A DNA stretch of 64,000 bases from positions 434,001 to 498,000 of the forward strand of contig NZ_MCIB01000001.1 of NCBI RefSeq assembly GCF_003609645.1. The letters run 5' to 3'. Below, in pieces: positions 8,950-43,840 of this stretch (positions are counted from its first letter, which is position 1; each line of letters begins with the position of its first letter). The notes below the pieces were generated by a model, which was not told where the DNA came from, did no database searches, and was given only the letters and a program-made list of their open reading frames with translations. The DNA is from Thermohalobacter berrensis (GTDB lineage Bacteria; Bacillota; Clostridia; Tissierellales; Thermohalobacteraceae). The position numbers were made by a program, and so were the translations under genes.

Positions 8950-9315
8950 ATGTATTTGATAAAAAAATATTCAAAGTTTATAATTATTGGACTAATTACA
9001 GGTATGGTAAATGGATTATTCGGTTCAGGTGGAGGAACGATAATAGTTCCTGCTTTAGTTTTTTTAATAGGTATAGAAGATCATAAGGCCCATGCTACTG
9101 CAATATCAATAATCTTTCCTCTTACTATTGTAAGTACATTTATTTATTTTACACATGATATGTTAAGACTTAATATTGCAATTGTTGTTGGTTTAGGCGG
9201 AAGTATAGGAGCTTATATAGGGGCTCGACTTTTAAATAAAGTCCCTAGCAAAATACTACGTAAAGCATTTGGAATATTTATGATTATAGCAGCAATAAGG
9301 ATGATGATAAAATGA
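8950..9315 (+). CDS. TSUP (TauE/SafE) half-transporter, first half
   Basis: A 121-residue membrane protein with about four helices, equal to one half of a TauE/SafE (TSUP) anion exporter. It has the family's repeat signature GMVNGLFGSGGGTIIVPAL at residues 18-36 and a second Gly-rich segment GLGGSIGAYIGARLLNKVPS. Full TSUP proteins are about 250 residues and contain this motif twice; here each repeat is its own gene. It overlaps the next gene by four bases (ATGA), so the two are translationally coupled and probably form a heterodimer. TSUP members move sulfite, sulfonates, thiosulfate or other anions; divergence from cysK hints at a sulfur compound, but the substrate is not shown. Confidence 0.85.
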   Translation: MYLIKKYSKFIIIGLITGMVNGLFGSGGGTIIVPALVFLIGIEDHKAHATAISIIFPLTIVSTFIYFTHDMLRLNIAIVVGLGGSIGAYIGARLLNKVPSKILRKAFGIFMIIAAIRMMIK

Positions 9316-9674
9316 TTCTTTTTTTAGTTGGTTTCTTATCAGGTATTATTAGTGGAATGGGAATTGGTGGAGGGACTATATTAATTCCTGCATTAATTTT
9401 TTTTACATCTTTAAGTCAGCATCAAGCCCAAGGTATAAACTTAATAGTTTTTATCCCAATAGCTATAATATCATTAATAACACATTTTATAAATAAGAAC
9501 ATATGTATTAAATTAGCTATTCCTATAATAATATCTGGACTTATAGGTTCTATTTTGGGTTCATTGCTTGCTGTTAACCTTTCTTCAAAAGCATTAAGAA
9601 AAATGTTTGGGCTATTTTTATTATTTATGGGTTTATATCAAATTTTTAGTAAAATAAAAAATTCTTCTACTTAA
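9312..9674 (+). CDS. TSUP (TauE/SafE) half-transporter, second half
   Basis: A 120-residue partner of the preceding gene, beginning inside its stop codon (ATGA). It carries the same motif at residues 10-28 (SGIISGMGIGGGTILIPAL) and about four membrane helices. The two halves resemble each other, as expected from the internal duplication in TSUP carriers, and together equal one full-length transporter. The last codons and stop lie inside the left hairpin of a dispersed repeat element (9661-9773), so this gene's 3' end is fused to that element. Confidence 0.85.
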   Translation: MILFLVGFLSGIISGMGIGGGTILIPALIFFTSLSQHQAQGINLIVFIPIAIISLITHFINKNICIKLAIPIIISGLIGSILGSLLAVNLSSKALRKMFGLFLLFMGLYQIFSKIKNSST

Positions 9675-9773
9675 AGTAGAAGAATCTCAAGGTTGACTTT
9701 TTTTAAACAAATAACAGAAATTATATTTTATCCACAATTTTTATTTGTTTATAATTTCTTATGTGTTATAAAA
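9661..9773 (+). repeat. Structured dispersed repeat, copy A
   Basis: Starts with a perfect hairpin (ATTCTTCTACTT at 9661-9672 against 9674-9685), followed by an 89-base block (9685-9773) that matches 43669-43757 with three differences. The block contains CTCAAGGTTGAC, a T run and a second long imperfect hairpin whose inner arms are GAAATTATA and TATAATTTC. The first hairpin plus T run may also act as the terminator of the TSUP genes. No coding frame is seen in it. Confidence 0.8.
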
Positions 9774-9808
9774 AATAAAGAGACCACTTGAGAGGCCTCT
9801 TTATTTTT
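9770..9808. terminator. Terminator between repeat element and CoA-binding gene
   Basis: A long A/T-tailed hairpin (AAAAATAAAGAG against CTCTTTATTTTT, with GG/CC extending it) that overlaps the stop of the minus-strand gene at 9801. The symmetric tails allow it to work on both strands. Confidence 0.75.
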
Positions 9809-10199
9809 CTGTCAATTCAGCTAATACACAGTCATAATATACTATTTTTTTATTTAATTTTTCTGCTTTTTCAATAATTTCTTCATCAAAAGTTCCTGGT
9901 TGAAACCAAAGATATTCAATACCAACTTTATCTGCTTGTTCTATTATTTTTTTAGTAACTTTAGGTGGTACTACAAAATCTATCACATCTACTTTTTCTG
10001 GTAATTCTTCTACTGAAGGATAGCATTTTTCTCCTTCTATTTCTTCATATTTAGGATTAACAGGATAAGCTATATATCCATGTTCCTTAAGAACATTCCA
10101 TATTTTATAACCGTATTTATCCTTATTTGGAGTGGCACCAACTACTGCCCATACTTTCTTATCTAGCATTTCCTTTTTATTTTTTTCAATATTATCCAT
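9801..10199 (-). CDS. CoA-binding domain protein (YccU-like)
   Basis: A 132-residue single-domain protein of the CoA_binding_2 family, a Rossmann-like fold related to the N-terminal domain of succinyl-CoA synthetase. VWAVVGATPNKDKYG (residues 16-30) is the nucleotide loop, NPKYEEIEGEKCYPSVEELP and DVIDFVVPP are typical of the family, and YLWFQPGTFDEE near residue 95 is the usual signature. The physiological role is not established for this family. It is monocistronic with a promoter at 10244-10273. Confidence 0.9.
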   Translation of the reverse strand: MDNIEKNKKEMLDKKVWAVVGATPNKDKYGYKIWNVLKEHGYIAYPVNPKYEEIEGEKCYPSVEELPEKVDVIDFVVPPKVTKKIIEQADKVGIEYLWFQPGTFDEEIIEKAEKLNKKIVYYDCVLAELTEK

Positions 10200-42737: not shown

Positions 42738-42769
42738 ACTAGCTGAGGGATTAAAATTTCTCAGCTAGT
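42738..42769. terminator. Terminator between hsp20 and folD
   Basis: A 10-bp perfect stem (ACTAGCTGAG at 42738-42747 against 42760-42769), 12-base loop, and seven T on the plus strand. It overlaps the folD stop codon on the other strand. Confidence 0.85.
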
Positions 42770-43611
42770 ATTTTTTTACAGGCATAAATAACATTATCTA
42801 ATAATACACTGGTAGTTACACTACCAACTCCACCAGGAACCGGTGTTATTGCTTTAACTTTATCTTTTACTAAGTCGTAATTTACATCTCCACAAATTTT
42901 CCCATCATTATCAGTATTAATTCCAACATCAATAACATTATTCTTTTGGCTAAAGTATTCATCACCAAAATATTTAGCCTTCCCTATAGCTGTTATTACA
43001 ATATCTCCATTTTTCGTTTTTGCAGTAAGATTTTTCGTTTTTGAATTACAGATTGTTACAGTGGCTTTTTTAGCTAATAACATCATGCTCAATGGTTTCC
43101 CAACAACTACACTACTATTTACTATAACTGCATTTGCCCCTATTAAAGGTATTTCATAATATTTAAGTATTTCCATTACAGCCTTTGGAGTACAAGGAAC
43201 AAATCCCTCTAACTCTCCCTCAAAGACCTTTGCTAAATTATAGGGATGCATACAATCAATATCCTTATTAGGGTTTATGATATGTTTAATTACGTTATAA
43301 TCTAAATGTTTAGGTAATGGCCTAAAAATTAATATTCCATGTACTTTAGGGTTATTATTAATTTCCTTTATTTTTTCTATAAACCCACTCATAGATATAT
43401 CTTTCTCTACTTGATATAGATAACTTTCTACACCAACTTTTTCACATCTATTTATAATAGCTTTCCTATATGATACATCATCAGCTCTATTTCCTACCTG
43501 TACAATTCCAATAGTCGGATTAATACCTTTTAATTTTAAACTTTCAGCTTCTTTTTTAATTTTTTTATTTAGCTTATCAGCAACGGGTTTCCCTTTTAAT
43601 ATGGTAGTCAT
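42751..43611 (-). CDS. folD: Methylenetetrahydrofolate dehydrogenase/cyclohydrolase
   Basis: A 286-residue bifunctional enzyme that interconverts 5,10-methylene-, 5,10-methenyl- and 10-formyl-tetrahydrofolate. The lysine/tyrosine active-site region (VSYRKAIINRCEKVGVESYLY), ILIFRPLPKHLDYN, KDIDCMHPYNL, FVPCTPKAVMEILKYYEI, SSVVVGKPLSMMLL and the closing TPVPGGVGSVTTSVLL are all present. A repeat element lies behind its start. Ribosome site GGAGG before the ATG. Single gene. Confidence 0.96.
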   Translation of the reverse strand: MTTILKGKPVADKLNKKIKKEAESLKLKGINPTIGIVQVGNRADDVSYRKAIINRCEKVGVESYLYQVEKDISMSGFIEKIKEINNNPKVHGILIFRPLPKHLDYNVIKHIINPNKDIDCMHPYNLAKVFEGELEGFVPCTPKAVMEILKYYEIPLIGANAVIVNSSVVVGKPLSMMLLAKKATVTICNSKTKNLTAKTKNGDIVITAIGKAKYFGDEYFSQKNNVIDVGINTDNDGKICGDVNYDLVKDKVKAITPVPGGVGSVTTSVLLDNVIYACKKILAEKF

Positions 43612-43646
43612 TAGTTCCCTCCTTGTTAATATACTTTATAAAAAAG

Positions 43647-43757
43647 TCTTCTATTAAAAATAGAAGATTCTCAAGGTTGACTTTTTTCAAACACATAACA
43701 GAAATTATATTTTATCCACAATTTTTATTTGTTTATAATTTCCTATGTGTTATAAAA
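43647..43757 (+). repeat. Structured dispersed repeat, copy B
   Basis: A hairpin (TCTTCTATT at 43647-43655 against 43659-43667) followed by an 89-base block (43669-43757) that equals copy A at 9685-9773 except for three bases. In the block, GAAATTATA pairs with TATAATTTC and, in this copy, ACACATA pairs with TATGTGT, making a long imperfect hairpin. It sits between folD and the chemoreceptor gene; the rest of 43758-43840 is AT-rich without a gene. Confidence 0.8.
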
Positions 43758-43840
43758 CACAATTTAAAACCTTTTCCTATTTTATATGTACAATTAGATT
43801 ATAACATACAAAAATATCAATACAAAGCCTTCATTAATAG

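Follow-up and report, generated by a model that had tools for sequence, protein, structure and literature searches.

Gene-less two-hairpin repeats beside T-tracts in clostridial genomes: evidence for a family of mobile elements

A real family of gene-less hairpin elements, working like palindrome-associated transposable elements (PATEs) or REP sequences, was identified in the genome of Thermohalobacter berrensis and in other clostridial genomes. The unit comprises two adjacent hairpins, which make up nearly the whole of its ~114 bp, and ends in TTAT; it inserts between genes, next to a T-tract that often belongs to an intrinsic terminator. Both the structural constraint on the element and its mobility are well supported. 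On balance, and by a slight preference, it is read here as a non-autonomous mobile DNA element that would be moved as folded single-stranded DNA by an HUH/Y1-type transposase acting in trans. The repeat is widespread in many clostridial genomes, apparently unannotated, and may be misread as a terminator or a regulatory RNA; the combination of covariation, a terminator-side target and oriented mixed arrays makes it a testable case for the spread of gene-less hairpins without an obvious enzyme.

Two copies in the 64-kb window

The window (the whole 64-kb stretch of DNA that was analysed) holds two copies on the plus strand, A and B, which a first-pass annotation had noticed as an 89-base repeat. 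That match was borne out, positions 9685–9773 and 43669–43757 differing at exactly three of 89 bases, and the likeness extends past the block to 9656–9774 and 43640–43758 (nine differences in 119 bases, 92 % identity). The repeat is thus real, but its limits had to be redrawn to 9656–9769 and 43640–43753, the bases that follow being the target A-tract. The differing 5′ hairpins (TTCTACTT/AAGTAGAA in copy A and TTCTATT/AATAGAA in copy B) and the inner hairpin common to both copies (GAAATTATA/TATAATTTC) were found as described; to these the present analysis adds the outer stem AAAAAAGTC/GACTTTTTT and a greater length of the second stem. The drift in sequence with pairing kept, which had been read from this pair, is real but consists of a single double change that is unique to copy A.

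The core of copy A (AAAAAATTC...GTGTTAT, 9656–9769, with boundaries taken from 39 aligned copies) was matched by covariance model R1 at 9656–9774 (110.8 bits, E 1.9e-15). Its stem 1 has the 5′ arm AAAAAATTC at 9656–9664, read from the letters with the stem counted on alignment A1, and the 3′ arm GACTTTTTT at 9695–9703. Folding, sequence and a terminator scan placed the inner hairpin TTCTTCTACTT..AGTAGAAGAA at 9662–9685; read on the minus strand, this hairpin and the A-tract upstream of it are scored as an intrinsic terminator. Stem 2 is formed by AACAAAT..AGAAATTATA (9706–9725) and TATAATTTCT.ATGTGTT (9750–9767), with the loop sequence TTATCCACA, which fits the DnaA-box consensus, at 9728–9736. 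The target A-tract (a T-tract on the minus strand), recognized from the sequence and from mixed arrays, occupies 9770–9775 and is adjoined by the intrinsic terminator hairpin (9776–9810, minus strand) of a minus-strand CoA-binding gene (9801–10199); the right flank of this copy (L014) folds at −13.4 kcal/mol. On the other side, the stop codon of an upstream TauE-like ORF lies inside copy A. Two overlapping half-length TauE/SafE ORFs occur on the plus strand here in inverted order, the ORF at 8950–9315 corresponding to profile positions 129–237 and that at 9312–9674 to positions 1–112.

Copy B (AAAAAAGTC...GTGTTAT, 43640–43753, plus strand) gave an R1 match at 43640–43758 (129.1 bits, E 2e-18). 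The arms of its stem 1 are AAAAAAGTC (43640–43648) and GACTTTTTT (43679–43687), and those of its stem 2 are AACACAT..AGAAATTATA (43690–43709) and TATAATTTCC.ATGTGTT (43734–43751), with TTATCCACA in the loop at 43712–43720. This copy is not terminator-adjacent; it lies 29 bases upstream of the start of a folD-like gene (42751–43611, minus strand).

Both copies folded better than all of their 200 shuffled versions (z −3.45 and −4.85 for A and B, respectively). A 27-base core pattern with up to three mismatches was found in the window only at copies A and B and in none of 100 shuffles. The covariance model likewise scored convincingly only there; its four other matches in the window, all on the minus strand, had E values of 0.27–0.98. 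Separately, a 30-nt inverted repeat (arms 83 % complementary, 10 bases between them) was seen at 2395–2464.

Copy number and boundaries

The whole-genome search that had been proposed for the repeat located it at 40 places (42 rows in a BLAST-type search) in the 2.76 Mb, 40-contig genome of the window (G000). Full length was retained in 39 of the 40 extracted copies, the short variant L040 being without most of hairpin 2; L040 was excluded from alignments A1 and A2, and L057 from A1. A search with the 3′ end added one further divergent full copy (L096) and several partial copies. Among the 39 copies, mutual identity had a median of 88 % and a maximum of 97 %.

The boundaries of the element are sharp, since the flanks of the copies are unrelated: it runs from AAAAAAGTC on the left to GTGTTAT on the right, where an A-run follows. 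These two ends are not inverted copies of each other, so there are no terminal inverted repeats, and the left and right flanks of the 39 copies do not covary, i.e. there is no copy-matched target duplication. Both observations speak against an origin as a MITE (a DDE transposon derivative). The element is too short to encode a transposase and is gene-less. In G000 both flanks are constrained, to WWWAT on the left and to the A-run on the right, which is unusual for IS200/IS605. Plasmid and phage records gave no match to the element.

Structure, covariation and the nature of the fold

On the plus strand of G000, hairpin 1 is AAAAAAGTC/GACTTTTTT and hairpin 2 is AACACAT..GGAAATTATA/TATAATTTCC.ATGTGTT. 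Stem 1 differs between genomes, with AACAAAATC/GATTTTGTT in G001–G003, AAAAAAGGCTTC/GAAGCCTTTTTT in G017 and G133, and AAGAAAAGCTTC/GAAGCTTTTCTT in G039 and G056. The base of stem 2 reads AACACAT/ATGTGTT in G000 and AATCCAT/ATGGATT or AACCCAT/ATGGGTT elsewhere, in each case followed by GGAAATTATA/TATAATTTCC.

Alignment A1 comprised 59 sequences (39 own and 20 foreign), and 94.4 % of its stem cells were paired. The covariation looked for in the light of the first-pass annotation was present: 11 of the 26 pairs had double changes, in 64 cells, compared with a mean of 17.1 (SD 3.2) in shuffles, none of 500 of which reached 64, and with 10 or fewer in slid versions. It is between subfamilies that the outer stem and stem 2 covary strongly. 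The inner hairpin, on which the earlier comparison had dwelt, occurs in only part of the family and covaries weakly; taken alone it had seven double-change cells, against 2.8 in shuffles, and neither its covariation score nor its number of pair types exceeded those of slid controls.

An RNA fold kept on one strand tolerates G-U more than A-C. In the stems of A1 the mismatches were 33 G-T and 42 A-C cells (21 and 29 in own copies); with the two equally common, the fold looks like a feature of DNA rather than of RNA. Per column, stem 1 had 0.44 private mutations, i.e. mutations of a single copy (a figure based on eight changes), the loops had 0.67 and 0.71, and stem 2 had 0.79. When all differences were taken together, stem 1 was spared (0.94 per column versus 3.3 in loops). 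As stem 2 is not depleted of private mutations, single copies seem to decay nearly freely, with the fold kept by the lineage that spreads. Rfam matched only RNase P in the window and none of the copies at gathering score; for six loci, seven matches were obtained up to E 1, all of them under the gathering score.

Two alternatives had been offered at the outset. That of a small non-autonomous element which has spread is favoured by the ~40 unrelated intergenic sites, the patchy distribution among relatives, the copies of 93–95 % identity in a different family and the mixed arrays. That of an RNA motif is disfavoured by the equality of G-T and A-C mismatches, the undepleted private mutations of stem 2 and the lack of an Rfam match at gathering score.

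Insertion sites and head-to-tail arrays

Most copies, own and foreign alike, have a T-run ahead of their stem-2 end when read on the minus strand, as a short fixed target. Relative to the element, the right-hand neighbouring gene was encoded on the minus strand at 28 of 37 scored own copies (three were unscored). A fold of −8 kcal/mol or lower was found within 50 bases to the right of TTAT in 20 of 39 own copies and in the left flank of only one; at the same cut-off, the extracted loci of other genomes gave 25 of 52 on the right and four of 52 on the left. At element-free non-coding WWWAT↓AAAAA sites (the arrow marks the junction) a hairpin was present in 11 of 45 (P 0.014 versus 20/39), and at AT↓AAAA sites in 25 of 179. 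Judged by the matched-site control, the preference for terminators exceeds the effect of the T-tract only moderately. Other copies were placed before a ribosome-binding site, in 5′ leaders, and the AACAAAATC subfamily of G001–G003 has no conserved AT on its left side.

Copies also occur in arrays. The one-contig genome G017 had 62 matches, with eight tandem groups: four units at 102 bp and three at 103 bp are nearly identical, and other groups consist of differing units. In G019, several different subfamilies abut. Wherever array junctions were read, the units were all in the same orientation, head to tail, with the exact junction TTAT↓AA, and the next unit began (with AAAAAA, AAAAAG, AACAAA or AAGAAA) immediately after TTAT. 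Because the bases after TTAT follow the neighbouring unit in arrays, the A-run found elsewhere belongs to the target. Mixed arrays can be formed by repeated oriented insertion and cannot be formed by slippage. Read on the minus strand, the hairpin of stem 1 runs out into a T-tract and thus resembles the genomic target; the terminator scan scored it as terminator-like in copy A. We infer that an element, once in place, serves as the target for a following insertion. In the G017 arrays L200 and L203, the unit nearest the target A-tract differs from its identical neighbours in its last bases only, which read GTGTTAT or AGGCTAT in place of GGGTTAT.

Distribution among relatives

A BLAST search of 41 relatives matched 10 genomes, including G005 and G009, whose matches were short and chance-like; these were rejected for want of element structure and not counted. 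With R1 at E 1e-6 or better, the element was found in 14 of 150 genomes of the order, in eight families, and in eight of 291 genomes of the class (G000 included); R1 was built mainly on G000 copies and misses divergent subfamilies. A 17-base end motif, whose reversed control pattern found none, identified more places than R1 in G011, G056 and G133. Carriers included Tepidibacter sp., Maledivibacter halophilus, Anaerosolibacter carboniphilus, another Anaerosolibacter sp., Alkalithermobacter thermoalcaliphilus, Candidatus Petromonas tenebris, Tissierella simiarum and a many-copy Clostridiales MAG. Exact cores were absent from viral contigs, and in genome contigs a first pattern found none and a looser one 26 stretches.

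Two copies in G013, a member of another family, were 95 % (L042) and 93 % (L052) identical to the consensus, versus mostly 71–80 % for full-length matches within the window's own family, which suggests that the element may have spread horizontally between families. At a related site, the element was present in G001 and absent from its congeners G002 and G003. The left flank of the G001 site was 98 % identical to G002 (230 bases) and 86 % to G003, and the right flanks were not alignable; this empty-site comparison covered one query and two G001 sites, neither of them clean.

Search for the mobilizing enzyme

The Y1_Tnp domain was matched in 29 of the 41 relatives and in nine of 13 further or repeated carriers; the carriers G001 and G011 had no match. 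G000 encodes three Y1 proteins in open frames of 259–275 codons, two of them with weak, sub-threshold matches to a C-terminal helix-turn-helix. Y1 loci were searched by BLAST and nhmmer (13), by covariance model (21, then 26 more) and by motif (50). Among the 50 loci (151,707 bases), no Y1 gene was flanked by element ends beyond one decayed copy. This lone copy, in G056, is explained by element density, and assignment of a RAYT/IS200 partner by adjacency was rejected. IS200 was also rejected as the source of the ends, since the ends of the G039 IS200 differ on direct comparison. The three identical 737-bp copies of that IS200 (L209–L211) each follow immediately on the T-tract of an intrinsic terminator, a different one for each copy, and this three-out-of-three placement may serve as a precedent for the target within the same order.

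IS608 and ISDra2 target the lagging-strand template, according to the accessible text of PMC6006769. In G017, the one genome examined for replication-strand bias, 27 of 45 loci had the expected orientation (P 0.23), a count from which one opposite-strand echo hit in an array was omitted, as were those close to the terminus or within a part of mixed skew. Given that no Y1 gene carried element ends and no strand bias was seen, transposition as a single strand is a reasoned conjecture. The RVT_1 domain gave no match in five element-bearing genomes (G000, G001, G002, G013 and G019).

Proposed mechanism and alternatives

Under the slightly favoured reading, an HUH/Y1-type transposase would act in trans on the element, as is thought for PATEs and REPs, and the element would move as folded single-stranded DNA. 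On the minus strand, the enzyme would join the stem-2 end (ATAAC...) behind the T-tract of a target such as a terminator (hairpin-TTTTT↓), and the stem-1 end (...GACTTTTTT↓) would supply a new hairpin and T-tract; this would explain further insertion at the element's own end, and hence the arrays.

Several features are shared with what would be expected of a cassette-like element moved by a site-specific recombinase. The junction TTAT↓AAAAAA, either folded or as a double strand, would be the substrate of this enzyme, as in integron attC arrays, and the circular junction would recombine with a chromosomal AT↓AAAA core. The exact junctions, the mixing of subfamilies in one orientation, the conservation of both flanks in G000 and the conservation of structure rather than sequence all fit this scheme; the missing left AT of the AACAAAATC subfamily and the lack of cargo between array units do not, and we regard it as unlikely. 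A conserved regulatory RNA or terminator-like element with a cellular function at each site appears less probable again, despite the conserved stems, the placement in 3′ ends or, within 5′ leaders, ahead of ribosome-binding sites and the scoring of the inner hairpin and T-run as a minus-strand terminator. Such a function is at odds with the unrelated flanks, a related site that is without the element in two congeners of one carrier, a stem 2 not depleted of private mutations, the equality of G-T and A-C, and Rfam matches that stayed sub-threshold at six loci.

A SINE-like retroelement, in which an RNA ending in ...UUAU plus an A-tail would anneal to the T-tract for target-primed reverse transcription, is decidedly improbable. 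In its favour, the A-run adjoins the T-tract, and the A-tract end alone is kept in L073, L224 and L223 (G000) and in L251 and L255 (G011). The polarity of that end-only search is, however, biased, because the A-tract end served as bait, and end-only hits with two mismatches may be due to chance (20 in the control versus 48 in all); furthermore, 3′-truncated copies exist too (L214 and L215), RVT_1 was absent from the five carriers and there is no wobble preference. Simple recent duplication of one intergenic stretch would suit the 92 % identity of the window copies and is scarcely credible in view of 40 genome places with unrelated flanks and relatives in other families. The first-pass annotation had held duplication to be enough if there were only two copies and no covariation in relatives, a situation excluded by ~40 copies with covarying stems.

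A further reading, put forward tentatively and considered somewhat unlikely, is that these are clostridial self-targeting hairpin elements, defined by landing at T-tracts (typically those of terminators) and by an outer end whose hairpin and T-tract mimic the target. Such an end would attract more units, from any subfamily, into oriented arrays resembling those of cassettes, and the recombination enzyme would be neither Y1 nor a reverse transcriptase.

Relation to known systems

Group IIC introns insert behind terminator hairpins; unlike these, the 114 bp of the element contain no intron or reverse transcriptase. The bcr1 repeats, about 155 bp long and flanked by TTTAT direct repeats, resemble the element as dispersed structured intergenic repeats of a low-GC Gram-positive group, but the element has no copy-matched duplication. 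bcr1 is named for the Bacillus cereus group in the accessible part of PMC2267715. In Streptococcus pneumoniae, the SPRITE, BOX and RUP repeats are likewise small hairpin repeats, some of them terminator-like, that insert into one another; an exact head-to-tail junction is not described for them in the portion of PMC10969869 consulted.

The PATEs of Haloquadratum walsbyi, palindrome-associated transposable elements of the IS200/IS605 type, are similar, as far as the consulted sections of PMC3119063 describe them, in their non-coding length, lack of terminal inverted repeats, palindromes near both ends, high copy number, and homogeneous and heterogeneous families. PATEs also lack a target duplication; the element has no copy-matched one in the 39 copies compared. 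In contrast to PATEs, the element has no parent IS200/IS605 bearing the same ends among the 50 Y1 loci examined, is nearly all hairpin, has a T-tract/terminator target and forms mixed head-to-tail arrays. REP/BIME sequences with their RAYT/TnpA-REP enzymes are also high-copy intergenic hairpins, and in known cases the Y1 enzyme recognizes structure (PMC6006769 and PMC3733652, accessible text). They differ in that the GT[AG]G foot is absent from the element consensus, the element arrays are unidirectional and Y1 genes are not flanked by the element. It was filed neither as a PATE nor as a REP, because the tests that define each failed (IS605-related ends for the former, a GTAG foot and a flanking RAYT for the latter). 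No description of the family was found in the literature searched, which lay mostly outside subscription journals and included the accessible text of PMC3119063, PMC6006769, PMC3733652, PMC2267715, PMC10969869 and PMC7290912.

The DnaA-box-like loop and related repeats

Within A1, 22 of the 39 own copies and seven of the 20 foreign ones carry the exact sequence TTATCCACA in the stem 2 loop; it is missing from the copies displayed for G017 and G039. The DnaA-box consensus is printed as TT[AT]TNCACA in the text of PMC6006769 available to us, where Y1 subclass 2.1 is described as having DnaA-like C-terminal domains and no known REP-like repeats. In G013, a Y1 transposase-like protein of 310 codons (L121) has a C-terminal Bac_DnaA_C match with E 1.8e-5, below the curated cut-off. 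A link between the DnaA-box-like loop and Y1 proteins with such domains would be a lead rather than a result.

Copies L257, L259–L262, L264 and L265 (G056 and G133) form a further subfamily, in which ACGGAAAGTTC of stem 2 is replaced by AGGTCA..GTTC and the 3′ half GAACTTTCCTATTCGTTAT is kept. G013 contains, in addition, a chimeric repeat (L216–L219 and L222) with the loop and upper stem 2 in common with the element but a different left part, ACAAAGTCGACTTCGTCGATTTGTC...GTTAGTAGTT; these chimeric repeats are mostly terminator-adjacent.
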